A stretch of 64,000 bases of DNA from an uncultured Ignisphaera sp. (GTDB lineage: Archaea; Thermoproteota; Thermoprotei_A; Sulfolobales; Ignisphaeraceae), in the NCBI GenBank assembly GCA_938074605.1, contig CALJEI010000002.1, forward strand, positions 248,001 through 312,000, in the 5' to 3' direction. The notes under the pieces were generated by a model. That model saw only the letters and a program-made list of their open reading frames with translations. It had not been told where the DNA came from and did no database searches. Below, piece after piece: positions 81 through 14,801 of the stretch; positions within the stretch are counted from its first letter, which is position 1, and each line of letters starts with the position of its first letter. The position numbers and the translations under genes are program-made.

Positions 81-1490
81 ATGTTTGTTAAAACTATTGT
101 TTCGATAGGTCCATCAAGCGGTGATGAGAAAACCATAAATGACATGATTAAAGTAGGTGTAAATGGGTTTAGAATTAACTTTTCACATGGTTCTCCAGAA
201 GAGTGGAAAAGATATGTAGAGCTTATTAGAAGTGGTGAAAGTAGATATGGAAGATTTGTAGCTTTAATAGGTGATTTACAGGGGCCGTCACTTAGAGTCG
301 GTATTATTAAAACGCCGATCACTGTAAAGAAGAGTGATGTTATTAAGATATTTCTGGGAAGAGAAAGCGATGGCGGATCACAATTTGCTGTACCTATGCC
401 AATACCTAGATTTTTTGAATACATAGATGTTGGCGATATTCTTGCAATGGATGATGGAAGGACGAGACTTCGTGTAATTGATAAGGGTAGCGACTATGTA
501 GAGGCTGTTGTCCTTACAGACTCAACTATAACATCTAGAAAAACTATTGTTATCCAGGGAAAGGATGTCGACCTACCGCCTATTAATGAGAATGATATGG
601 CTAATATCAAATTTGCACTTGAAAATGATTTTGATTATATAGGTCTTAGCTATGTTAGAACAGCTGAAGATGTAGCATTATTAAAAGATGTATTGAGAAG
701 ATTTAACGGTGATGATATAAGTGTAATTAGTAAAATAGAGACTCGAAGTGCAATAAACAATCTAGATGCCATAGTTCAAGAAAGTGATGTAATTCTTGTA
801 GCGAGAGGAGACCTAGGGACAAATTTTGGTTTAGAGGAAATACATATGCTTCAGAAACGCATTATAGAGAAATGTCTAAAACATAGAAAGCCAGTTATAG
901 TTGCTACACAGCTGCTTGAATCCATGACCGAAAGACCTATTCCAACAAGAGCTGAGGTAGTAGATGTTAGTATTGCTGTTGAGGCTGGTGTAGATGCTTT
1001 AATGCTTACTGGAGAAACATCTATTGGTAAGCATCCCCTGGATGCAGTTCTCTGGCTCAAAAAAATAATTGAATTTGTTGAAAAGAATGTTTTGTTAGAA
1101 AATCTCAATGTGATTGCAATGTATGCTAGAAAGAATCTAGATGCAATACAATTAAAATTTGTAAAGGGAGTAGTTGAGCTTACTGAGGATATAAATGGTA
1201 AATTGATTGTATTTAGTATGCATGGTAATACAGCAAAAAGAATTTCCTCACTTAGACCTATGATACCAGTTTATGTAGGTTCACAAAATATAAAGGTACT
1301 TAGAAAACTTTCAATATTATGGGGACTTCATCTATCATATGTAGAGTCTCAAGACTATGAAGAAGGTCTAAGAAAAACTTTAGCAAAAGCTATTGAACGG
1401 GGTTTTGTAGGTTATGGTGATTATGTTGTATTAACATATGGGTTAAGGGAACCTAGGCAAAGAGTTGAAATACAGCGTATAACTGTCTAG
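81..1490 (+). CDS. pyk: Pyruvate kinase
   Basis: Transfers phosphate from phosphoenolpyruvate to ADP, giving pyruvate and ATP in the last step of glycolysis. Family motifs are clear: the N-terminal substrate motif FRINFSHG near residue 30, the catalytic lysine in SKIE at residue 218, VARGDLG, and MLTGETSIGKHP. The B-domain lies between the two halves of the barrel and a C-terminal allosteric-type domain follows; 469 residues is normal for the family. I choose the ATG at 81 rather than the in-frame TTG at 51 because family members begin with a short stretch before the TIVSIGPSS strand and a GGGAG precedes the ATG. The gene converges with the VWA gene, and the two 3' ends overlap by 4 nt. Nothing upstream within the window shows how it is regulated. 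Confidence 0.96.
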   Translation: MFVKTIVSIGPSSGDEKTINDMIKVGVNGFRINFSHGSPEEWKRYVELIRSGESRYGRFVALIGDLQGPSLRVGIIKTPITVKKSDVIKIFLGRESDGGSQFAVPMPIPRFFEYIDVGDILAMDDGRTRLRVIDKGSDYVEAVVLTDSTITSRKTIVIQGKDVDLPPINENDMANIKFALENDFDYIGLSYVRTAEDVALLKDVLRRFNGDDISVISKIETRSAINNLDAIVQESDVILVARGDLGTNFGLEEIHMLQKRIIEKCLKHRKPVIVATQLLESMTERPIPTRAEVVDVSIAVEAGVDALMLTGETSIGKHPLDAVLWLKKIIEFVEKNVLLENLNVIAMYARKNLDAIQLKFVKGVVELTEDINGKLIVFSMHGNTAKRISSLRPMIPVYVGSQNIKVLRKLSILWGLHLSYVESQDYEEGLRKTLAKAIERGFVGYGDYVVLTYGLREPRQRVEIQRITV

Positions 1491-2803
1491 GCCTTTACAA
1501 CAGATAGAATTTCTTTTTCACTCAACTTCACGACCTTGAAATAATCACTACTTATATTTCTTAAATCTTCATTCTCACCCATAATCATTACAGTTATAAG
1601 TCTTGTCTTTGTATGCTGTAAAGCTTTTTTAACCAAGCTTCTAGCAATTCTATCTTCACCATCTGTAATTAATATAACTTCATTTAGTTCCCTTGATCTA
1701 AGTTTAGCTATATCATTACATGCTGTTATTAGGGCTTTGGAAATATCTGTTCCTCCACCGTTTTTAACCATAGCAATGTATTCTACTAACTTCATTACTT
1801 CTGAAGGTCTTGCACTAGGACCTACTTTAAATAATTCGTATGGTTCTGAGTCAAAGAATCTAATGTAAAAGAATCTACGTTCCGCTCTACTCTTCATAAA
1901 TAATGCTAATGCAGTAGCTTTAGCCCATAGGATTTTATTACCGTCCATACTACCAGACTTATCAACTAGTAGATATATGGGGCCTATATTCATGTATATA
2001 GCCTTTTCAAAGAGAAGAAGATTATCATCAGCAAGTTTTATATAAAGATATAGCTGTGGGTATGCAAACTCTGTATATACTATTCTTTCTATATCCGATC
2101 CCCTAGTATATCCCTCAATCTCTCCCCTTTGATATGGAATTTTCCTCTTTTTCGTTACAGCTGTAACATCTGGAACCTTAGCTAGTATCGCTAGTATATT
2201 TCTGATATCAGTATTTTTAACCAACTTAATGACGCTCACTACATCATCCTCAAGATTAAGAACATGGCCTACCCCAGCCTTGTACCCATAAACAAAATGC
2301 TCTACATCCTTTATGGTTTCAGCACTCTCTAATGTTTTCTTAATAGCTCTTTTAACTAAACTTTCTACATTTCTACCTTCATTTTTGTCACCTTCCCCGG
2401 TATCCTTATTTTGATCTTTACCACTACTTTTATTTCTTCCCCTATCTTGCAAAAACATTCTATCTCCATTATTTTCAAATTCCTCTACAATATTCATTAG
2501 AAATAGTGTTCCTAAGGTAATAGATGTAAAACTATCTGCTACAGTATAGAGCCTTAGTTTTCTAGCATCCTCATCAGTCAACATTGTTTTGATCATTCTA
2601 TAGTGTTTTTCAGCACCCATAGAGACTTGAGACATGTCATTTAAACTTGGAAATGGGAGGTATAGTGAGTAGTAAACATCAATTGCTAAATCTAGTGAAA
2701 TATCTCCACGGTTTTTCAATTTCTTTATATTATCAAGAATCTTTTGACCCTTATAACGCGTAAATGGATCTTGATAATCTATATGTTTTAATACCCCTGG
2801 CAT
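1487..2803 (-). CDS. VWA-domain protein, partner of MoxR ATPase
   Basis: Protein of 438 residues with a C-terminal von Willebrand factor A domain. The metal-ion-dependent adhesion site DKSGS begins near residue 281, followed by the downstream T of GGGTD and the D of ITDGED. The N-terminal half is helical, with a Lys/Asp/Gly/Asn-rich flexible linker around residues 120-145. It starts 1 nt after the MoxR stop and has a clean GGGAGG SD, so the two are translationally coupled. MoxR-VWA pairs (RavA-ViaA and CoxD-CoxE types) are known as chaperone or metal-insertion machines; the substrate here is unknown. Context (peptidase, ABC permease and surface protein upstream on the same strand) suggests a role in maturing or handling an envelope complex, which is inference. 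Confidence 0.85.
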   Translation of the reverse strand: MPGVLKHIDYQDPFTRYKGQKILDNIKKLKNRGDISLDLAIDVYYSLYLPFPSLNDMSQVSMGAEKHYRMIKTMLTDEDARKLRLYTVADSFTSITLGTLFLMNIVEEFENNGDRMFLQDRGRNKSSGKDQNKDTGEGDKNEGRNVESLVKRAIKKTLESAETIKDVEHFVYGYKAGVGHVLNLEDDVVSVIKLVKNTDIRNILAILAKVPDVTAVTKKRKIPYQRGEIEGYTRGSDIERIVYTEFAYPQLYLYIKLADDNLLLFEKAIYMNIGPIYLLVDKSGSMDGNKILWAKATALALFMKSRAERRFFYIRFFDSEPYELFKVGPSARPSEVMKLVEYIAMVKNGGGTDISKALITACNDIAKLRSRELNEVILITDGEDRIARSLVKKALQHTKTRLITVMIMGENEDLRNISSDYFKVVKLSEKEILSVVKA

Positions 2804-2804
2804 A

Positions 2805-3968
2805 TTACCTCCCTTCCATTTTCTTCTTTATCTTTTCTAGAACTTCATTAATGTTCTCCACAATCTCAGCTCCCTTTTTATGCACCTTCTCATCATTCGT
2901 CTCCCTGATCATTGATAATACTCTATCCCTTGTAGATTCAAGATCTCTATATATCTCAAGTAGCCTGTACTCTATAAATCTTGAGTTTATATTCGGAAAA
3001 GATATAATGTAATTATTAACCTCCCTTATGCTGACAGCTATCTCCTCAAGCTCTCTTAGGTATCTATAGGATGTCTTCAATTCTTCAGAAAGAATTATAT
3101 TGACTCTTTCAAAATCATCTATATCGTGAGGCACTATGAATTTTAATGCCGCTAAGTCCTCCTCATTGGCTATCAATCTATTATTAAGTATGGCATGTGC
3201 TGCTATGACTTTTAATGCTTTTCCTTTCCTTCTATCTGTAATATGAAGATTTTTTGATTCAAGTATTGAAAATATTTTCAGTAGTTTGGTTTCAATAGCA
3301 TTAAGATTAACCGTGTATATCAATTTATTTATATTTTCTATAGTGGCTCTATCCAATGTTATTTCAGGCTGTGGGTAACCATATCTCTCAATATCCCATG
3401 AATACTTTAGAAGATCCCTCCACATATCCTCTGACAGTGGCTTAACATAGTGTCTTAGTAGAAATCTGTCATAGAGGGCTTCAAGCTCAGGATCTTGAGG
3501 TACTTCATTGCTTGCACCAAAGAGGCTCCAAAGCATAACTTTAATCTCCGTATAACCATCGTAAAACAGTCTTTCATTCATAATGGTAAGTAGTGTATTT
3601 AGAATGGCTGAATTAGCTTTAAATATTTCATCTAGAAATACCACCTCAGCTTCTGGTAGCTTGCGAACCGTAATTCTTACATATCTTCCTTCTTTTAATG
3701 CATTTATATCTAAAGGTCCAAATAGTTCAGCAGGCTCTGTATATTTTGTTAATAGGTAGGTGAAGCATCTCATATTAAGAAGCTGTGCAGCCCTTCTAAT
3801 TAATGCACTTTTGGCTGTACCTGGCTCACCAATAAGCACGGCATGTTCTCTTGTAAGTAAAGCTAATAATATAACCTTGGACTCCTCCTCTCTACCAACA
3901 AATGGTTTAGAGAGCTCGCTATGTATTTGTGGGACCAATTTTAAATAATTTAGATAACTTTCCTCCAT
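2805..3968 (-). CDS. MoxR/RavA-family AAA+ ATPase
   Basis: AAA+ ATPase of the MoxR class. Walker A GEPGTAKS lies near residues 47-54, Walker B VVFLDE near 109-114, sensor 1 in FGASNE, and an arginine-finger region in ALYDRFLLR. The C-terminal third is a helical lid followed by a charged coiled-coil-like tail. The ATG at 3968 sits about 25 nt downstream of TATATA at 3991-3996 and would be leaderless; an in-frame ATG at 3980 has no SD and lies too close to that TATA box. The MoxR-VWA pair may therefore have its own promoter inside the five-gene run. It likely remodels a protein complex together with the VWA partner immediately downstream. Confidence 0.88.
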   Translation of the reverse strand: MEESYLNYLKLVPQIHSELSKPFVGREEESKVILLALLTREHAVLIGEPGTAKSALIRRAAQLLNMRCFTYLLTKYTEPAELFGPLDINALKEGRYVRITVRKLPEAEVVFLDEIFKANSAILNTLLTIMNERLFYDGYTEIKVMLWSLFGASNEVPQDPELEALYDRFLLRHYVKPLSEDMWRDLLKYSWDIERYGYPQPEITLDRATIENINKLIYTVNLNAIETKLLKIFSILESKNLHITDRRKGKALKVIAAHAILNNRLIANEEDLAALKFIVPHDIDDFERVNIILSEELKTSYRYLRELEEIAVSIREVNNYIISFPNINSRFIEYRLLEIYRDLESTRDRVLSMIRETNDEKVHKKGAEIVENINEVLEKIKKKMEGR

Positions 3969-4001
3969 ATTAGTCATCATGTTGTCTGTCTATATACTAT
4001 T

Positions 4002-5576
4002 TTAGCAATACTGCTTAAAGAGTATATATGCTAACAGTTCTAAATTAAAATCAGTATTTCTATAACATTCACTGCGATTTTTGAATTCAATGTCTGTAGG
4101 AATATATACCAAATTCTCATCACATCTAATAAACTCTATACCCTCCCGTATGCCAAGCTTCCTACCTATATCTTTACTTACATAAGCTGTACTCACTATT
4201 CTATTAAATAGATTTATAAAATATGTATACTTATGCCTTTCCATACATCTTTTAGATTCATTAAATATTTTGCATATCCTATATAGGTTTAACAGTAGCT
4301 CAGACGAAAGAGTCCTTTGTATAATACCTTGGATATCTTCGTTCACTATGCTGCACACATTAATATGCTCATTGCTCTTACTGATAGCAGTGTACCTATC
4401 GATTAACATGTATACGTTCCTAATTGTGTTTAATATAATCTCTATGTTAATATTATTGACATAATCTCTATCACTATGATAAATGCCTTCATTTAATACC
4501 CTTTTAAAGGTATTGAAGGTTATTGAAGGTATACCAGCTAATGTAAATGGAAAAGAGTCAAAAACAATACTATCATGCTCTAATACAATATCTTTAGAGT
4601 ACAACCTAATTGTATTCCTTATAATAGTATTTGATGTTGAAGCTGTTAATGGTTCCCTATATATAACGTCGATGTTAATAGTCAATATTGTATTGTTTAC
4701 AATTTTGTCCGCATGATTATTGATATGATGTTTTGAACCTACAAGCCAATAAAATGATGTTATATCATCTGGAAATCCTTCTTCTGCAGTAAAGGAAGCT
4801 AGTACAATATTATTATTTGTATTGCTATCCCTAAGAATTTTTGGGAGAACCGTAAGAATTGAAACACCTATAATATTATCACTGCCTCCACTTAACCAAT
4901 GATCGTGATGGGCTGTTATATAGATGCGTCTATCGTCATATCTCCTATTCAGCTCTGCAACAACATTATATCCGTACGATTTAAATGTTTCTGTTTTAGC
5001 ATATACCCTACCCCCAACTAATTTATTAATATCGCCTATGTCCCTTCCTACGTGTATAACTGGGATATGTAACTGACTGGCTCTCCTATATAGGGCTACG
5101 ACATTATTTAATACTACAATTCTTCTAAGGCTCATCCCTTTATCTTTAATAATTATTAGCCGAGGTCTATGTTGGGCAAGAATATATGCAACTGTAGCTA
5201 TATCGTCAGGATCGCTTGGCATATCAATTAAAACAATTTTATCAAATACATTATCTGTTACCTCTTTGTATACTAATTCATTTAAATCTATGTCGACGAT
5301 TTTACTATGGTTTATTTCTTCATCTATAATCCCTTGATAAGGAGGATGTACAGTACATGGATAACTATGACTCCCTTTTTCTACTACACATATTTCTTCA
5401 TACCATGATGTAACAGGAACATGTTCTATCCGGAGCTCATCTGTATAATTCTCCAGATGTCCTCTGATAATTTCTATGACTTGTTTTTCTCTATTTGTCC
5501 CTGCAATTATTTCACCAATTCTTTCTATTTCACTAGCAGTACTTAAAATATTATTGATGATTGTATTAGCTATCAA
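4002..5576 (-). CDS. M28-family zinc aminopeptidase-like protein
   Basis: Predicted co-catalytic di-zinc peptidase of 524 residues. The M28 ligand set is recognisable in order: H223 and D225 in AHHDHW, bridging D233 in GSDN, the E265-E266 pair in TAEEG, D303 in NIDVIY, and H367 in GIYHSD. Residues 60-200 resemble the protease-associated-type insertion of this family. I see no signal peptide or membrane segment, so it is probably cytosolic. The start is TTG at 5576, with GGTGA about 7 nt upstream. It lies 34 nt downstream of the ABC permease and 33 nt upstream of the MoxR start, on the same strand. M28 members cleave N-terminal residues or carboxypeptide substrates; the substrate here is unknown. 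The sequence is quite diverged outside the metal site. Confidence 0.78.
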   Translation of the reverse strand: MIANTIINNILSTASEIERIGEIIAGTNREKQVIEIIRGHLENYTDELRIEHVPVTSWYEEICVVEKGSHSYPCTVHPPYQGIIDEEINHSKIVDIDLNELVYKEVTDNVFDKIVLIDMPSDPDDIATVAYILAQHRPRLIIIKDKGMSLRRIVVLNNVVALYRRASQLHIPVIHVGRDIGDINKLVGGRVYAKTETFKSYGYNVVAELNRRYDDRRIYITAHHDHWLSGGSDNIIGVSILTVLPKILRDSNTNNNIVLASFTAEEGFPDDITSFYWLVGSKHHINNHADKIVNNTILTINIDVIYREPLTASTSNTIIRNTIRLYSKDIVLEHDSIVFDSFPFTLAGIPSITFNTFKRVLNEGIYHSDRDYVNNINIEIILNTIRNVYMLIDRYTAISKSNEHINVCSIVNEDIQGIIQRTLSSELLLNLYRICKIFNESKRCMERHKYTYFINLFNRIVSTAYVSKDIGRKLGIREGIEFIRCDENLVYIPTDIEFKNRSECYRNTDFNLELLAYILFKQYC

Positions 5577-5609
5577 ATAATTTCACCTAAAATTAATTAC
5601 CTTATTACT

Positions 5610-6827
5610 CTATTCATATCTTAATGCAACTGCTGGTGGTATTTTAGATGCTCTATATGCTGGAAAAATTCCACCTACTATTCCTATTAGTATAGTTAAT
5701 CCCATGGTTCTCATTATCAATTCAATAGTTATTTTAGGATTGGCTCTTATTACTAGTGATGCTTCTGGAGAAGCTCTTAATTCAAAGCCTACTGTTGCTA
5801 ATGAGTAACCTCCTACCACACCAAGTGTAATACCTATAGCTCCACCAATTAAGCTCATAATAATGCTTTCCATTAAGATCATAACCAATACATATTCACT
5901 TGTAAAGCCCAGTGCTTTAAGTACACCTATTTCTCTTGTTCTCTCAATAACCGATGTTATCATAGTAGCTGCAACACCTGCTACAGCAACTGCAAATGCC
6001 GATAGGCTTGCCGCAAAGGATATAAAGCTCATTGCACTTGTAACGGAATTTACAATATTTGCTATTCCTTGAAATGATATTATTTCAGCTGAATTTCTAT
6101 ATATGTCCCTTAGATCACCAACAATTTTTGCTACATCATCACTACTTCTAGCCAATACAAATATCCCACTCCACTGATTTAAACCAAAGAGTCTATGTCC
6201 AGCCTCTAATGGAAGAAAGATTGTTGTATCTGGGCTTAAAATAAATGCTCCACCAAATTCTTTAAGAATTGCTGAAATCATTACCGTTGCTCTTCTAATA
6301 GTGTTTCTACCACCCTCACTCCTCATAAAGGTAATGGCCACTGTATCACCAATACCACACATTTTTATACCATCTTTAAAGGCGATTTGATATCCTATAA
6401 CAGCCTTTACATACTCCGAAGCTACAGGTATACTTCCTTCATATATCTCAATACCCTTTACTGCTTCAAATACAATATCTATTGGTATGGCGTATATAAA
6501 GACAATTCTATTCTCTCCCCCTACTCTAACCTGAGCCTGTATAGAATAGAATGGCTCAGCTCTAACTACATTATCAATTGACCGTATGACATTTAGATCG
6601 CTTTCTGTAAACTTATATCCTGATGATGGAAACAATACTATTGCATTCTGACCTAGTCCTTGAATCTGCTCTATAACGTAATCAGCATACCCATCAACGA
6701 CACTAGATATCATTACTAATGCCAAGGGCCCTATAGCTATACCTATAATTGTTAGTGCTGCTCTAATTTTTCGCTCAGTTAATGCCCTAAATGCAAGAAT
6801 AGCTATATCTATAAAAAAGTGAATCAT
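5610..6827 (-). CDS. MacB/FtsX-type ABC transporter permease
   Basis: Integral membrane component of a MacB-like ABC system, 405 residues. It has one N-terminal membrane helix after a short basic segment (ALTERKIRAAL), a roughly 220-residue extracellular MacB periplasmic-core-like domain, then the FtsX module of three C-terminal helices, with ERTREIGVLKALGF between the first two and the terminal PAYRASKIPPAVALRYE typical of the family. The chosen ATG at 6827 has AGGGATGA just upstream; an in-frame TTG at 6848 would overlap the giant protein gene. It begins 4 nt after the stop of the 1.5-thousand-residue surface protein. No ATPase gene is in this run; the MacB/LolD-like ATPase at 13769 is the obvious candidate partner (inference). 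Such systems typically act as mechanotransducers or lipoprotein/peptide exporters. Confidence 0.88.
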   Translation of the reverse strand: MIHFFIDIAILAFRALTERKIRAALTIIGIAIGPLALVMISSVVDGYADYVIEQIQGLGQNAIVLFPSSGYKFTESDLNVIRSIDNVVRAEPFYSIQAQVRVGGENRIVFIYAIPIDIVFEAVKGIEIYEGSIPVASEYVKAVIGYQIAFKDGIKMCGIGDTVAITFMRSEGGRNTIRRATVMISAILKEFGGAFILSPDTTIFLPLEAGHRLFGLNQWSGIFVLARSSDDVAKIVGDLRDIYRNSAEIISFQGIANIVNSVTSAMSFISFAASLSAFAVAVAGVAATMITSVIERTREIGVLKALGFTSEYVLVMILMESIIMSLIGGAIGITLGVVGGYSLATVGFELRASPEASLVIRANPKITIELIMRTMGLTILIGIVGGIFPAYRASKIPPAVALRYE

Positions 6828-6831
6828 TACT

Positions 6832-9800
6832 TCATCCCTTATATGCAAGCTGCTGTAAGGCGACTCTCTTCATATATTTATAGAATACAAAAGCCATTGC
6901 TAATAAAAATAGTGATACAGCTATTATAACAAATATATGGGCTGATTGTAAGGATTGTGTTTGCGGTTGTGTATATGTAGCTGTGGGTGCTTCTATTGCA
7001 ACATATAATTTACGTTCCAATACATTTTCAACATAATATTCATCTCTATAAACTATATATAACATTATAGTATCCGGCACTTCCTTCACTCTAGCTTCAA
7101 TTCTAAATACAGATTGTGAAGCAGGATCTATATCCCCAATTAAAGTTGTGGTCAAGTTGCCATCTATATTAATCTTAGCTTCTACACTTCTAGCTGTAGC
7201 AATACCATAGTTGACTACAACACCTGAAACCCTCAGTATATCTCCAGAAATAACTGCTCTTACATCCTCTAACCTTAAATCAATAAATGGTTCAAGCAAT
7301 ACTGAAATAGATGTATTGAGATACTGCATAAACCCTGAAACATCACGATATACTATAGTTACTCCAAATGGCACCGACATATATCTCATATATGTTTGCG
7401 CTGCTCCCATAGTTACAGCTATAGGATTGTAGATGAGGGTATATGAGATATAAACCACGTCATTTGATGGTAGGACATCGATATACTTAACATTACCATC
7501 AGGCAGTAGCATGGAGGTATGTGGTATTAAGTATATATATACATTGTATAGCGGTGATGAGCCTATATTTTTAATCCCCATGTTAAGTAGTGATGTACCA
7601 TTAGATACCTTTATCTTTATAGGCGTATATATATCGATTATCTTTGTTGAACCAATGACCACTATGTCTATCTCTAAGGGTATTCTTCGGATACAACTCC
7701 AATGATCAATAAAATTAAGGTATGCTGTTGCAGAATATGTCCCCGGCCTGTCTACTAATACATTAAGTTTTATATAGAAATAAAACAGATCACCGTGCCT
7801 AAAACTCTGCTCCATACCACCTTGTTGAAACATTTGTGAAACATAGTTCATAATCAGCTGCTGATAGCTTGCCGGTGATATTCTTGAATATTCAATTAGG
7901 TTTATGGTTGTGGCAGGCACTTTTGCATATGATTGATTTGTTGCAGAATATGTGAATCCCTTTGGAAGATACAACTCGAGTACTGCCCCCTTAACTAAAG
8001 GATTGTAGTTATTCCTAATAGTCACTGCTAACACAGTTCCATAAGTACCTGGTTCAGGCATAGCTCCAATCCACTGCACCGATACGATAGTAACACTATT
8101 ATTAAGATCATTTACCAAAATATTGACTGGATGTCTTTCAGTAACAGCTGTATTGGGAGTTCCACTCTCAACTACATATTCTATTACTAGTGTAGCATTA
8201 TATCTACCAGGCTTAATGCCATCCACACTTATTTGGAAAGTTGCAGTAAATTGTTGAAGACTGCCTATAGGGCCTGGTATATATGATATCGCCTTATCTT
8301 CCCCCTTTGATGAAAAGCCTTTTGGTAAATTCAATATTAGTTTGACTCCAGATACCCTATATGGCCACCTATTTACAACTGTTATAAAATATGTAGCATT
8401 CTCTGTATGGGGGTATGTTGGCCAGTTATTCGTCCATCCCCAATCTATTACCTCTAGCCCTTTACCACTAGCACTACCATCTATCTGTAAATCAATATCA
8501 TATCCTATACTATCGTTAATATTAGCTCCATATAGTGTAAATATATAGTTTATATTTACATGAAATCCTACAATACCTATTGAAACATTTAATAAATCTG
8601 CATATAATGTTGCTGAACAACTTCCACCTACATTTAATATTGGTGTACATACCGCCCTTCTATTGATTAGGGTAATACCGTTATTTCTAGGCTCTATCTC
8701 TATCTCTACACCACTAACGGGATAAGGCCCATTGTTTATAACAACTAGAGTTAGTGGTACATTACGCTGGCCCTCTAAAGCTCTTATGGGCGTCTGAATA
8801 CCCCAATACCATGTCGTCAGCCTTACGATTGGTCTATAGTATTTATACGATGCTACGGCTATGGGGATTTCTAGTGTGTCACTATATATGGCAATAGCAT
8901 CTCCACTCCAAATCCCATATTCAATCTCCATTATAATGCTATAGTTATAGGGTTGTGATAATGGTTCAACATCAATATTTAGTGTAAGTGTACAAGTGCC
9001 TGCAGCTGTAACACCATATGGACATGTGCCTGTAACGTCATTAACTTTAACAGTATGTGGAGTATAATACGCTTTAGGCCTTATCCATGCAATAGAATAA
9101 GGCTTGGTATTAATTAAATCAACATTTATAAGAATGTTGCGTGCTGATGGTAGAAGAGGTGCATATGTGCCACTATACTGAGTATGGACTGCCCCAATAA
9201 CGAATACCTTTAATTCAGGGAGAAGGTCTAGTTCCAATACATAGCTTTCTCTAGCTATATAACGCATTCCACTACTTTGAATTATGCTGGTAATCAATAC
9301 ATTAGCAATTATTTTGCTATCGGTTTTATTTACTTCAATATCGGTAAAAGTTACTGTGAATGTATTACCATAGTTTATATAACTTGTAATTGTTGCTATA
9401 GATCTATTCCTTCCATCTATGAACTTAGCATTTACTCCATCGAATTCCAGCTGAATTACTAATGTTTCTATTGTATCTATATTAAAAGATTGAAGCGTTA
9501 AATATGCTGTAGCACCACTTGTTTTCGGCGATACTATACCGTACCTCCATCCTTTGTCAATTAGCGTCATATTCAATTTAGGATTATGTATTGGTAGTAA
9601 GAGGGTATATGTTCTATCATACCAAAAACTCTGTGAACCTATACACAATGCTTTTAATCTTAATACTACTGGATAAACACCCTCACTATATGCTATGATA
9701 TCTATGTCTGGTACCTCAACATATATAGCCTGTCCATATCTGAAGACTCCACTTACAACAGTAGTAAGACTTCTATTAAGTGATTGAAATATCATTTGCT

Positions 9801-11529
9801 TTGGTAGATATACTGTAAGCGTGGGATTATGTATTGTATACCCTGGTTCAATCACCATAAAGTATATGTACAGCCTTGAGCCTATTGAATTTATGTATAC
9901 CCTCCTCGATAGCCACCCATATTCAATAACATTTAGTATAGTTTTATTGGGCGGTGTAGCCACTGTTATTATTAATATATAGCTGTTTTGAAACCTATAA
10001 AATGTATTAACATCTGCCACCGAAATACCACTAACATTTAGCTTCACCTTATATACACCAGGTTCTACCTCATTACCTATTGAAATGGGTGAAAAGACCA
10101 CTGTATTTCTACTACCCCTTGCTATGTTGATACCTGTTAATTTTATTGTTCTTGGATAGAAGTTTATGGGAAGCTCTAGTGTTGCCACAAGATCTCTTAC
10201 ATCAACTACATCATAGTTTTCAAGCACTATTGCAAGTCTGGTATTCTCAGAACCTGGATACACTTCTCCATCAATCCAGTAGACGTCTGCCACCATTAGA
10301 TTGACATGTGGCTTATCTATTGAAACAGTAAAATAGTATTTATTTTCATACCAGAACTCTGCGCCATTATCATCACCAAAAATTATAAGCCTTAATTCAA
10401 TGTTAACTCTATCTATGGCACCTATAATTAATGGAGGTGAATAAAGTGTTGCTATATCGCCATAGTTTAGTATTCGATTATATGTATTGACAGCATTTTT
10501 TGTTTTATTAATGAAGCTAGCTTCTGGTGTTAGTATCGTGAAGTAGGCTATCATACTTCTTATTGTTTTAAAATCCTTATTTATTACCGTAACATAGAAT
10601 CTTGTTTGAATAGTTTCTTCAACGACCCTTACACTCTCAAATCCGTAATCGAGAATCTCAAGATTAACCGGTGGTGCAGATGATAGTGTAATACCAATGG
10701 TTTTTGTTGTACTAGAATTATATACTATATTATCATCAGTACTCATTGTGGCATATAGCGTTAGTCTGGCGGTATACAAGATATCTGGAATAGCATTAGG
10801 GTTTATTGATATAGGTCCTAGAGACACTGTAGCTGTTGCATGCTTATTTAAAGTAGGTACCCTAAATCTTATGTTGTTAGGTGTAAATATATTGTATTGT
10901 AAATTTGTAATACCATCAGCCTGTAATATTATTGCATTTCCACTATTTCTTAAAACAATATATAGATAAACATTTTGTGAACCTGGGTATGCCTCTGGAG
11001 ACCAGTACCAATCAACAACATCTATACTAAGCTCTGGATATGGCTCAACTAAAATGTTAATTCCCTCCACAGTTTCTGTAAGAGTCAATCCATTATCAAT
11101 CTTATGATAGTATATTATCATTGTAATAGAATGGCTGCCGAGAGTAACATCTAACCCAATATCCAGCCTATATCTAAAGACAATTACATCATATTGTTTC
11201 ACGATATTGATTATAGTATTATCTAATGAGTATGGCGGAGAACACTGTGAAGCCCCTCTAGACGGGGTAATTCCACTTGGAAGCTGCAGACATGCTGCAG
11301 AAATAGATATATCGTCGCTAGATATATATTTTATATTAACATTTAGTTCAACATTTCTACTTCCAGGATAGATACTATCTGTTCCAGCTGATGATTTATA
11401 GGTATATGAAATTAATTCGAAATTAACACCTTGTGCTACTGTATAATGTAAATAAATTTCAATAATTGAAATGCCTAGTATAGCTATTAATAGCAATGAT
11501 ATTATGCTTTTTGCCAAAGCTTGCAACAT
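6832..11529 (-). CDS. Giant membrane-anchored extracellular repeat protein
   Basis: Protein of about 1565 residues with an N-terminal signal/anchor helix (SIISLLLIAILGISIIEIY), a very long beta-rich extracellular region, and a C-terminal membrane helix followed by a short basic cytoplasmic tail (YKYMKRVALQQ). The ectodomain is built from roughly a dozen diverged modules of about 110-150 residues. Each opens with a (V/I)xDxxW-like strand, then a YPGSxN-like turn, then a strand such as LYIVLRN. This resembles S-layer/CARDB/NEW3-type immunoglobulin-like repeats (COG1361-like). Many N-x-S/T sequons fit archaeal glycosylation. ATG at 11529 follows GCGTGATA; GTG at 11538 is an alternative. It is the first gene of the run with the MacB-like permease, so it is probably the extracellular receptor or structural partner (inference). 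Confidence 0.8.
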   Translation of the reverse strand: MLQALAKSIISLLLIAILGISIIEIYLHYTVAQGVNFELISYTYKSSAGTDSIYPGSRNVELNVNIKYISSDDISISAACLQLPSGITPSRGASQCSPPYSLDNTIINIVKQYDVIVFRYRLDIGLDVTLGSHSITMIIYYHKIDNGLTLTETVEGINILVEPYPELSIDVVDWYWSPEAYPGSQNVYLYIVLRNSGNAIILQADGITNLQYNIFTPNNIRFRVPTLNKHATATVSLGPISINPNAIPDILYTARLTLYATMSTDDNIVYNSSTTKTIGITLSSAPPVNLEILDYGFESVRVVEETIQTRFYVTVINKDFKTIRSMIAYFTILTPEASFINKTKNAVNTYNRILNYGDIATLYSPPLIIGAIDRVNIELRLIIFGDDNGAEFWYENKYYFTVSIDKPHVNLMVADVYWIDGEVYPGSENTRLAIVLENYDVVDVRDLVATLELPINFYPRTIKLTGINIARGSRNTVVFSPISIGNEVEPGVYKVKLNVSGISVADVNTFYRFQNSYILIITVATPPNKTILNVIEYGWLSRRVYINSIGSRLYIYFMVIEPGYTIHNPTLTVYLPKQMIFQSLNRSLTTVVSGVFRYGQAIYVEVPDIDIIAYSEGVYPVVLRLKALCIGSQSFWYDRTYTLLLPIHNPKLNMTLIDKGWRYGIVSPKTSGATAYLTLQSFNIDTIETLVIQLEFDGVNAKFIDGRNRSIATITSYINYGNTFTVTFTDIEVNKTDSKIIANVLITSIIQSSGMRYIARESYVLELDLLPELKVFVIGAVHTQYSGTYAPLLPSARNILINVDLINTKPYSIAWIRPKAYYTPHTVKVNDVTGTCPYGVTAAGTCTLTLNIDVEPLSQPYNYSIIMEIEYGIWSGDAIAIYSDTLEIPIAVASYKYYRPIVRLTTWYWGIQTPIRALEGQRNVPLTLVVINNGPYPVSGVEIEIEPRNNGITLINRRAVCTPILNVGGSCSATLYADLLNVSIGIVGFHVNINYIFTLYGANINDSIGYDIDLQIDGSASGKGLEVIDWGWTNNWPTYPHTENATYFITVVNRWPYRVSGVKLILNLPKGFSSKGEDKAISYIPGPIGSLQQFTATFQISVDGIKPGRYNATLVIEYVVESGTPNTAVTERHPVNILVNDLNNSVTIVSVQWIGAMPEPGTYGTVLAVTIRNNYNPLVKGAVLELYLPKGFTYSATNQSYAKVPATTINLIEYSRISPASYQQLIMNYVSQMFQQGGMEQSFRHGDLFYFYIKLNVLVDRPGTYSATAYLNFIDHWSCIRRIPLEIDIVVIGSTKIIDIYTPIKIKVSNGTSLLNMGIKNIGSSPLYNVYIYLIPHTSMLLPDGNVKYIDVLPSNDVVYISYTLIYNPIAVTMGAAQTYMRYMSVPFGVTIVYRDVSGFMQYLNTSISVLLEPFIDLRLEDVRAVISGDILRVSGVVVNYGIATARSVEAKINIDGNLTTTLIGDIDPASQSVFRIEARVKEVPDTIMLYIVYRDEYYVENVLERKLYVAIEAPTATYTQPQTQSLQSAHIFVIIAVSLFLLAMAFVFYKYMKRVALQQLAYKG

Positions 11530-11717
11530 AGTTATCACGCTAGCTATCGTCTTTCCATATCGCTTAAAAAACCTTTAAGTTAATAAGTACATGCTATTGT
11601 TTGATGTTATTCTATAGAGGTGTTAAAAAATTTTATATAACCTAATATATCTATCTAAATATAGCATAATACAAACTTCATTGCAGCAATAATGTGTGTT
11701 ATGAATGGGGGCAGAAG

Positions 11718-12008
11718 ATGAGTAGTAGAGGTAGTGAGGAGCTTGTTGTAATAAGTGTTACTGGTGCTGATAAACCAGGTATTGTTGCTGGAATTACTGC
11801 TATTCTTGCTAAACATAATGTAAATATCGTTGATATAGCACAGACTGTAGTGAGAGGCATATTTAGTATGATTATGATTGTAGATCTCTCAACAGGAAAT
11901 ATAACTTTACCTAAGCTTAGGGAGGAGCTCTATATAAAGGGTAAAGAATTAGGTGTTGAAGTTAGTGTTCATCATATAGATGTATTTAAGGCTATGCAGA
12001 GGGTGTAG
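11718..12008 (+). CDS. ACT-domain protein (UPF0237 family)
   Basis: Small protein of 96 residues consisting of a single ACT domain. The first strand (VVISVTGADKPGIVAGI) and the typical helix-strand continuation (NVNIVDIAQTVV) are evident. ACT domains bind small ligands, usually amino acids. Members of this family are found next to UPF0210 proteins, exactly as here (3 nt apart), and are proposed to be regulatory subunits. The ATG at 11718 is preceded by a run of five G; an in-frame GTG at 11694 is less likely. A TATA-like ATATAACCTAATATAT lies near 11635-11650. Confidence 0.85.
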   Translation: MSSRGSEELVVISVTGADKPGIVAGITAILAKHNVNIVDIAQTVVRGIFSMIMIVDLSTGNITLPKLREELYIKGKELGVEVSVHHIDVFKAMQRV

Positions 12009-12011
12009 TAT

Positions 12012-13400
12012 ATGCCTAGAATCATCAGCCCTGAAGAAATAAGTGAAGTTCTTGAAATGCTACTGTTTCACGACCTTGATATAAGATCAGCAACTTTAAG
12101 TTTAAATCTCCAGGACTGTATCTCAAGAATTGAGGATGAGATTCTTTCATGTATAGAGGAAAAGGTAAGTCTATATTCAAAAAAACTTGTTAAAGCTGTT
12201 GATAATGTGTCTAAAAAATATGGTGTAAAGATTGTAACCAAAAGAATTGCCGTAACTCCAATATCAATTATTATTGAGCCATTAGCTAGAAAAAGCTTTG
12301 AAGAAGCTAGCAATGCTGCTATAAATATTGCTAAATCTTTAGATAGAATTGCTATATTAAACGGCATTGACTATATTGGTGGTTATGCCGCATTTGTTCA
12401 TAAGGGTTTTACACAAGGCGATAAAGTTGTAGTAGAAACACTACCTAAAGCTTTAGCTTTAACACAAACTATTGCCGCTATGATTAATGCTGCTTCTACT
12501 GCTACAGGTATCAATGTTGATGCTATAAAAGATGTAAGTAGAAAAATTCTTGAAATTGCACATAGTACGCCAAAGGGTATTGGATGTACGCGATTTACAA
12601 TTATGGCTAATGCACCTGAAGACAATCCGTTCATGCCAGGTGCATATCATGGTCTTGGAGAACCAGAGGCTGCTATAAATATTGCTGTAAGTGGTCCTGG
12701 GGTTATAGAGGCTGCTATAAACAGACTAGATGAAAAAATAGACATGAGAACACTACATGATACAATAAAGAGAGCAGCTTTTAAAATAACACGTCTTGGT
12801 GAATTGGTTGGAAGAGAAATTGCAAAAGAATTAGGAATACCATTTGGTATTGTTGATCTTTCCCTTGCGCCATCGCCAAAGATAGGCGATAGCGTTGCAA
12901 GGATTTTGGAGGCTATGGGTCTTGAGTATGCAGGTGCACCTGGTAGTATTGCTGCACTGTATATTCTTACAGATGCTGTTAAGAAGGGCGGCACTATGGC
13001 AACATCAAGTATAGGTGGCTTAAGTGGAGCATTTATCCCTGTAAGTGAGGACTGGGGTATGTTGCGAGCAGTTGAAGTAGGAGCTATAACCATAGATCGT
13101 CTGGAGGCAATGATGATGGTATGTAATACAGGTATAGATATGGTTGCTATACCAGGTGACACACCCATAGAGACTATAGCCGCAATAATTATAGATGTTA
13201 TGGCAGCAGCTATAATGCTTGATAAAACCCTTGGAGTTAGACTAATACCTGTACCAGGGGCAAAAGCAGGCGATAGAGTTGATTTTGGTGGATTATTGGG
13301 CTCAACAATTGTTATGGATGTTCCTAAATTTAACTGCAAGAAATTTATAGAACGTGGAGGCCTTATACCTCCATCGATAAAGAGGCTAGATAAAGGTTAA
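12012..13400 (+). CDS. UPF0210 (DUF711) family protein, PFL-like fold
   Basis: Protein of 462 residues belonging to the conserved UPF0210/DUF711 family, whose fold is related to the pyruvate-formate-lyase/ribonucleotide-reductase barrel. Family features include Gly/Ala-rich segments such as YHGLGEPEAAINIAVSGPG, FGIVDLSLAPSPKIGDSV and the C-terminal PGAKAGDRVDFGGLLG. I see no obvious glycyl-radical motif, so catalysis by radical chemistry should not be assumed. It is translationally coupled to the ACT-domain gene upstream; the pairing is widespread in bacteria and archaea, but the reaction is not established. Length is normal for the family. Confidence 0.87.
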   Translation: MPRIISPEEISEVLEMLLFHDLDIRSATLSLNLQDCISRIEDEILSCIEEKVSLYSKKLVKAVDNVSKKYGVKIVTKRIAVTPISIIIEPLARKSFEEASNAAINIAKSLDRIAILNGIDYIGGYAAFVHKGFTQGDKVVVETLPKALALTQTIAAMINAASTATGINVDAIKDVSRKILEIAHSTPKGIGCTRFTIMANAPEDNPFMPGAYHGLGEPEAAINIAVSGPGVIEAAINRLDEKIDMRTLHDTIKRAAFKITRLGELVGREIAKELGIPFGIVDLSLAPSPKIGDSVARILEAMGLEYAGAPGSIAALYILTDAVKKGGTMATSSIGGLSGAFIPVSEDWGMLRAVEVGAITIDRLEAMMMVCNTGIDMVAIPGDTPIETIAAIIIDVMAAAIMLDKTLGVRLIPVPGAKAGDRVDFGGLLGSTIVMDVPKFNCKKFIERGGLIPPSIKRLDKG

Positions 13401-13768
13401 GATTAACAACTATTTAAATTATTTGTCTTTAATAGTAGTATTAACTCATTTATGTAGACTATATAATATGTCTACTGGTTAGTCCACAATATTAAAGCTT
13501 CCTAAACATATTTTTACCCAACATAGATATGCCGCATCATTCATTTGACGTCTTACTACATTTTACTTTCTATTAAATTCCTCCAAATCTATTCTTTTCT
13601 GTTATCTTCCACATCAATACTTTTACTTCAATGTTATCACAAAATTTTTATTAAAGCTTTACCTTATCAATATATTAAAACTTGAAGATGTCTAGTCTAT
13701 TATCTGTAGAAAGATGTTATAGTTTTTCAATACACTTGGCAAATGCTATATGGTAGGGTGGCTAAGAG
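13401..13768. other. Intergenic region, no gene seen
   Basis: About 370 bases of AT-rich DNA between the UPF0210 gene and the ABC ATPase gene, both on the plus strand. I find no open frame with coding character and no RNA-like structure. It has several T-rich tracts (for example around 13500-13620) that could terminate transcription from upstream. It must hold the promoter of the ATPase, but several TATA-like stretches (near 13660-13680) make the choice uncertain. Confidence 0.5.
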
Positions 13769-14491
13769 GTGAAGAAGGAAATTATAAGGATTGAGAATGT
13801 ATCGAAGATATATAGGACAGGGGATATTATAACCTATGGCTTAAGAAGAATTGACATGACAATATATAAAGGAGACTTTATAGCTATTATGGGTCCATCA
13901 GGTTCAGGAAAAACAACTCTTTTAAATATTATTGGTCTTCTTGACAGACCATCATCTGGAAGTGTATTCATCGATGGTATAAATGTAGTTACATTTAGTG
14001 ATAGACAGCTAGCATGGATTAGGAATATAAAGCTTGGGTTTGTCTTTCAACACTTTAACTTAATAAATAGACTTACTGTATTGGAAAATATTGAAATGCC
14101 GCTAATAGCTAGGGGTATACCAAGAAGTAGAAGAGTTGAATTAGTTAAAGATGCTCTATTAAAAGTTGGTGGAGAATTAAGTTGGCTTCCAAAGAAGCCA
14201 TTACAGCTATCAGGTGGACAGCAGCAAAGAGTCGCCATTGCCAGGGCGATAGTAGGTTCACCTGAAATTATACTAGCTGATGAACCTACAGGCAATCTTG
14301 ATAGAGCAAGCGCAAAAACCATTATAAACACATTTTCAGAATTAAATAAATACGGTCATACAATTATTATGGTCACCCATGATCCTGAAATGGCAAATTG
14401 TACCCAAAAAATATTTATGATTAGAGATGGTGTGATAGTGGATTTAAAGAATCCTGAAATTGATAAATGTATTCTAAGAACTGTAATATGA
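13769..14491 (+). CDS. MacB/LolD-type ABC transporter ATP-binding protein
   Basis: Nucleotide-binding subunit of 240 residues. Walker [10 protein letters not shown] lies at 42-50, the Q-loop in FVFQHFNL near 92-99, the ABC signature LSGGQQQR near 147-154, Walker B plus D-loop in [11 protein letters not shown], and the switch histidine in VTHD. The [15 protein letters not shown] and DEPTGNLD forms are characteristic of the MacB/LolD/FtsE subgroup, which pairs with FtsX-type permeases. The only such permease in the window is at 5610-6827 on the opposite strand, so the two probably form one transporter (inference). Start is GTG at 13769, after GGGTGG. No permease gene adjoins it downstream. Confidence 0.92.
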
Positions 14492-14713: not shown

Positions 14714-14801
14714 TGGCGCCGGGGGCGGGATTTGAACCCGCGTGGGGTGTTCCCCCACCGGCTCTCCAGGCCGGCCCCTTAGACCACTCGGGCACCCCGG
14801 C
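14714..14801 (-). tRNA. tRNA-Ser (GGA)
   Basis: Read on the minus strand the 88 nt fold as a class II tRNA. The acceptor stem is GCCGGGG with CCCCGGC, the anticodon stem CCGGC/GCCGG closes the loop CTGGAGA (anticodon GGA), a long variable arm pairs GTGGGG with CCCCAC, and the T arm is GCGGG-TTCAAAT-CCCGC. The discriminator is G, and CCA is encoded in the genome. It lies downstream of rps10 on the same strand. Confidence 0.97.

Follow-up and report, generated by a model that had tools for sequence, protein, structure and literature searches.

The window, a 64,000-nt stretch of the 1.63-Mb genome of an uncultured Ignisphaera sp., carries on its minus strand five open reading frames that encode, from upstream to downstream, a giant ectodomain protein, a MacB-like permease, an M28 metallopeptidase, a MoxR AAA+ ATPase and a VWA-domain protein (Table 1). 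A preliminary description of this DNA had proposed these five genes on one strand with gaps of 4, 34, about 30 and 1 nt, and all five reading frames were confirmed; the gaps, read from the giant to the VWA gene, are 4 nt (with the permease ATG at 6827), 33, 21 and 1 nt, the third widening to ~30 nt if a later MoxR ATG is used. Its family assignments also hold in Pfam searches. The extent it gave to the unit is right for the five genes but too narrow, since a cognate ABC ATPase that belongs with them lies outside it, on the plus strand beyond the giant.

Table 1. Features of the locus, in window coordinates.
Feature	Position	Strand	Basis or remark
VWA-domain protein	1487-2803	-	Pfam VWA E=1e-10; conserved motif columns
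MoxR AAA+ ATPase, RavA/bpMoxR type	2805-3980	-	Pfam bpMoxR 9e-65, NCBIfam, RavA match
M28 metallopeptidase, predicted cytosolic	4002-5576	-	Pfam Peptidase_M28 3e-16, conserved columns, no TM
MacB-like Type VII permease	ORF 5610-6848, ATG at 6827 (gene 5610-6827)	-	Pfam, NCBIfam, PDB sequence matches, hydropathy
Giant ectodomain protein	ORF 6832-11538, ATG at 11529 (gene 6832-11529)	-	Hydropathy, structure models
Giant, C-terminal TM anchor	about 6880-6936	-	Followed by a ~15-residue basic cytosolic tail
Giant, N-terminal signal/hydrophobic stretch	about 11449-11505	-	
ACT-domain gene and DUF711 gene, outside the system	11694-13400	+	Mark the inverted block between giant and ATPase
Cognate ABC ATPase, MacB/LolD/FtsE class	13769-14491	+	Orthologue identity, co-occurrence, adjacency in relatives
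tRNA-Ser (GGA)	14714-14801	-	Directly past the displaced ATPase

The permease has the layout of a Type VII ABC permease, in which TM1 is followed by an extracytoplasmic MacB_PCD domain and then by an FtsX domain containing TM2-4. In Pfam, MacB_PCD matches with 69.9 bits (cut-off 27, 5e-19) over residues 31-248, that is, between TM1 and TM2, and FtsX with 62.5 bits (cut-off 25.5, 5e-17). The four main hydropathy peaks fall at about residues 33-51, 283-301, 320-338 and 377-395, and weaker peaks at 115, 269 and 307 also exceed the threshold. Sequence matches in the PDB are to MacB, LolCDE and YtrF, and the closest named relative by permease is an Ignisphaera metagenome-assembled genome at 82% identity. 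The ABC ATPase matches the LolD/MacB/FtsE models, and its orthologues form a clean class at 58-83% identity, with paralogues at 51% or less.

The giant, of ~1565 residues, has one hydrophobic stretch at each end by hydropathy, in agreement with the membrane-anchored ectodomain initially described. Modelled by AlphaFold2 as two halves, with alignments of relatives (mean pLDDT 89.1 and 86.3), it is predicted to consist of ~12 tandem Ig-like beta-sandwich domains, ~6 per half, a count that is our interpretation of the strand order in the models. Besides the C-terminal TM helix, the models contain a short helical insert at about residues 1214-1238; away from the two ends, a single helix of ~17 residues is present. 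The protein carries 18 N-glycosylation sequons. It has no Pfam match above the curated cut-offs, scoring 12.8 bits against a cut-off of 22.7 in the CARDB/NPCBM_assoc test, and sequence searches found no solved homologue; a homologue from another family (G033), with 59 bits for NPCBM_assoc and 34 for CARDB, exceeds both Pfam cut-offs. Foldseek searches with the models returned nothing functionally specific (TM no higher than about 0.3), the matches being generic Ig arrays such as those of ciliary central-pair proteins and alpha-2-macroglobulins. By our estimate, ~12 domains of ~4 nm each could span some 40-50 nm, and crenarchaeal stalks have reported lengths of 20 and 70 nm (PMC5744192). Membership of the SlaB/tetrabrachion stalk family was considered and rejected: the C-terminal TM segment is present, but the models are without a long coiled coil.

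The three downstream products retain their characteristic motifs: Walker A (GEPGTAKS) and Walker B (FLDE) in MoxR, a complete MIDAS in the VWA protein (D281-K-S283-G-S285, T352, D381), and a metal/catalytic set in the M28 peptidase (H223-x-D225, D233, E265-E266, D303, H367), whose HHD, D, AEE, NxD and YH columns are conserved in at least 95% of aligned homologues. Hydropathy revealed neither a signal nor a membrane segment in any of them. Being predicted cytosolic, they could reach only the ~15-residue tail of the giant and cannot mature its extracellular part, as had originally been suggested for MoxR-VWA with the peptidase. In the loci of relatives, too, MoxR and VWA lie side by side, and with these motifs the two qualify as a MoxR-VWA pair in the general sense. 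Such pairs act on client complexes and remodel them via the VWA MIDAS (PMC9976466). We infer that, among the local candidates, the M28 peptidase is the most probable client or partner of this pair. In one relative of family f2 (G056, L087:7862-10111), MoxR carries an intein-like insert just after Walker A (residues 101-408; Pfam Intein_splicing 43 bits, LAGLIDADG_3 29.5 bits), and a similar insert in a second f2 genome (G028:C52) is suggested by a split match.

The pair resembles RavA-ViaA in that MoxR matches RavA over ~280 residues and adjoins a VWA protein with a complete MIDAS. However, the NCBIfam equivalog scores are 174.5 against a cut-off of 681 (RavA) and 28.9 against 500 (ViaA), the MoxR match does not extend past residue ~300 of the 498 of RavA, whose LARA region is C-terminal, and neither LdcI nor respiratory-complex genes adjoin the MoxR-VWA genes of the window. 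Likewise, a score of 218 bits against PF20030 recalls the MoxR-vWA-beta-propeller ternary (bpMoxR) systems, but these ternary/conflict systems differ in their third component, since no beta-propeller gene occurs among the scanned neighbours and an M28 peptidase is present instead.

The order giant-permease-M28-MoxR-VWA is kept in 11/11 genomes of the genus Ignisphaera, and very probably the cluster exists in the cultivated type strain, I. aggregans AQ1.S1. In one of the 11 (G010), a contig break divides the cluster, with the ATPase and the first part of the giant on one and the rest on the other. Because this order persists even though the giants are mostly only 41-47% identical between species, it reflects more than chance, and the outer flanks of the cluster differ among the 11 genomes. 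A same-strand ABC ATPase gene lies directly upstream of the giant in 9/11 of them, and most relatives have the order ABC-giant-permease on one strand. The arrangement in the window is different. With the giant's strand as reference, the order in G009 is ACT and DUF711 in the same orientation as the giant, then an opposed PadR gene, the ABC gene and the giant, whereas the window and G008 have ABC, DUF711 and ACT, all opposed, followed by the giant. Hence, positions 11694-14491 of the window bear the signature of an ACT-DUF711-ABC block inverted relative to G009, with the relatives' PadR gene missing, and the comparison of the two orders indicates that block inversion removed the ATPase from the operon and that PadR was lost. 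In 13 relatives the PadR gene, assigned by Pfam, and the ABC gene are divergently oriented, which hints weakly at a stress or xenobiotic response; the hint is weak because no PadR gene adjoins the window's copy and many relatives lack one. The sole PadR detected elsewhere in the window's genome is closer to a different PadR than to those of the operon.

Each protein was used to search 60 relatives, and co-occurrence was counted in the 47 near-complete genomes. With presence called by bit-score thresholds chosen after viewing the gap between orthologues and paralogues, the giant and the orthologous permease and ABC ATPase are all present in 30/47 and all absent from 17/47 (phi 1.00). For the giant and MoxR-VWA, by comparison, both occur in 27 genomes, only the giant in three, only MoxR-VWA in 13 and neither in four (phi 0.18), and phi for the giant and M28 is 0.37. 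Gene order follows the same division. Giant and permease adjoin in nearly all loci, with the ABC gene immediately upstream in most, whereas MoxR-VWA is present in nearly all relatives and, outside the Ignisphaera family, lies at a locus unlinked to the giant. M28 directly precedes MoxR in 16/17 loci of the Ignisphaera family (f1) and in 0 loci read outside it. Among 80 loci of the named collection, found with a permease alignment profile, seven have M28 and MoxR after the permease; six of these are the ones nearest to the genus and the other is the g5 locus. Protein-distance correlations are 0.96 for MoxR and VWA, 0.88 for giant and permease, 0.87 for VWA and permease and 0.62 for MoxR and giant, but these are not independent tests, as they share one species tree. 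Thus, of the single complex first envisaged, the giant-permease-ATPase unit stands (adjacent genes, perfect co-occurrence), and membership of MoxR-VWA and M28 is not supported; similarly, the genes that were to be scattered in relatives if the proposal failed are indeed dispersed, and differ in phyletic pattern, once the family is left, but they stay together within the genus.

The ABC-ectodomain-permease arrangement extends well beyond the genus. Searching with a profile built from the giant detects homologues in 217/398 genomes of the phylum, and a complete shorter module, with an ectodomain of ~490-890 aa, is present in 13/17 further loci read across it. The window's own genome encodes a second, paralogous module of ABC ATPase, CARDB ectodomain and MacB-like permease (G000:C2:233580-239226, L122), ~9-14 kb before the window start; its ectodomain, of 1230 aa, exceeds the Pfam cut-offs for CARDB/NPCBM_assoc.

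Type VII ABC systems turn ATP hydrolysis into work outside the membrane, and each is defined by its partner protein (PMC5985334, PMC12646458). The Ignisphaera module shares with MacB, LolCDE, FtsEX and YbbAP a permease with FtsX and MacB_PCD domains and four TM segments by hydropathy, a separate ATPase of the LolD/MacB class and a dedicated extracytoplasmic partner, here the giant. It differs in that this partner is an anchored Ig-like array of ~1565 aa, as against the adaptor MacA, LolA, EnvC or TesA, and in that the module is archaeal, without an outer membrane. The Gram-positive MacAB/YknXYZ systems are comparable in having an ATPase, a MacB-like permease and an anchored extracytoplasmic partner in one operon, likewise without an outer membrane, but the giant is several times longer, all-beta and Ig-like, and matches no MacA-type adaptor family. 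The locus does not qualify as a MacAB-TolC tripartite pump, which requires a MacA/HlyD-type adaptor and TolC: no adaptor match was found in the giant or among the scanned neighbouring genes.

On this evidence, we favour, with a probability of roughly 0.72, a Type VII ABC machine whose extracytoplasmic partner is the giant and, at the same locus, a distinct MoxR-VWA/M28 module, two ATP-driven modules that would have been joined in the Ignisphaera lineage. In the first, made of the ABC ATPase, the permease and the giant, two ATPases would power two MacB-like permeases, and the stroke would perform work outside the membrane. The giant, anchored in the membrane and lying between it and the S-layer, would be the permease's partner and fill the role that MacA, LolA, EnvC or TesA has in bacteria. 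The analysis shows gene content, gene order, co-occurrence and a predicted class of fold; a physical complex, the direction and substrate of its work and any link between the two modules are inferences. The most likely task would be to clear the membrane or quasi-periplasm of compounds that are hydrophobic or peptides, by extraction or expulsion, regulated in a number of relatives by PadR. The second module would be a cytosolic remodelling pair, MoxR-VWA, with M28 as its likely partner in the Ignisphaera family. Some observations count against this reading: Ig-like arrays are generic and the Foldseek matches are unspecific, and the five-gene order in 11/11 genus genomes could mean that the two modules are functionally coupled.

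One may argue that the giant serves chiefly as a structural protein of the surface, an S-layer stalk or adhesin, which the permease and ATPase extract, position or assemble in the manner of LolCDE or of an ABC system for surface assembly. Its tandem Ig-like array, its sequons and its C-terminal anchor are consistent with this, as S-layer stalks of crenarchaea end in a C-terminal TM helix (PMC5744192), and Foldseek gave one weak match to an S-layer protein (7ptp, TM 0.16-0.18). We nevertheless consider this unlikely. Unlike SlaB or tetrabrachion, the giant has no coiled-coil stalk; its homologues vary from ~960 to 1680 aa between lineages, the shorter ones missing middle stretches, and the membrane-proximal part is retained in nearly all. 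Moreover, a lattice protein would not need strict co-occurrence with one permease and one ATPase, and the giant's paralogue in the same genome belongs to the second ABC-permease module.

A single trans-envelope machine, with ABC ATPase, permease and giant acting outside and MoxR-VWA-M28 docked on the cytosolic face to remodel or recycle it, appears improbable. The conserved order with its short or overlapping gaps between changing flanks would fit such a machine, as would genus g5 of the same family (G014), where both modules share one locus with three ORFs between them. In another genus of the family, g2 (G011), however, the two modules are on separate contigs among unrelated genes, the giant offers only its short tail to the cytosol, and the three downstream proteins have neither a signal nor a TM segment. 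We therefore do not adopt the five-part machine as the main reading, since the phyletic patterns differ and, outside the family, so do the loci. Also improbable is an elaboration confined to Ignisphaera, in which six proteins would form a trans-envelope machine with the long Ig array as lever or conduit from the permease toward the S-layer, ABC and MoxR as two different ATPase motors on the cytosolic face, and M28 processing the passing material. Anti-phage defence was dismissed, as the PADLOC matches were only generic or partial (FtsX/LolE-type TM part, ABC ATPase domains).

The genus-specific cluster is thus better read as a local joining of two modules than as one machine, which corrects the earlier single-machine interpretation. 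The module of ABC ATPase, ectodomain and permease, by contrast, occurs across Thermoproteota. No description of an archaeal COG1361/CARDB ectodomain paired with a MacB permease was found in the open-access literature searched, and the ABC-giant-permease triple appears to be undescribed. The giant Ig-like array, which never occurs apart from its permease and ATPase in the near-complete genomes compared, is a candidate Type VII partner class for archaea, and through it one can test how such machines are used beneath the S-layer in archaea that have no outer membrane.
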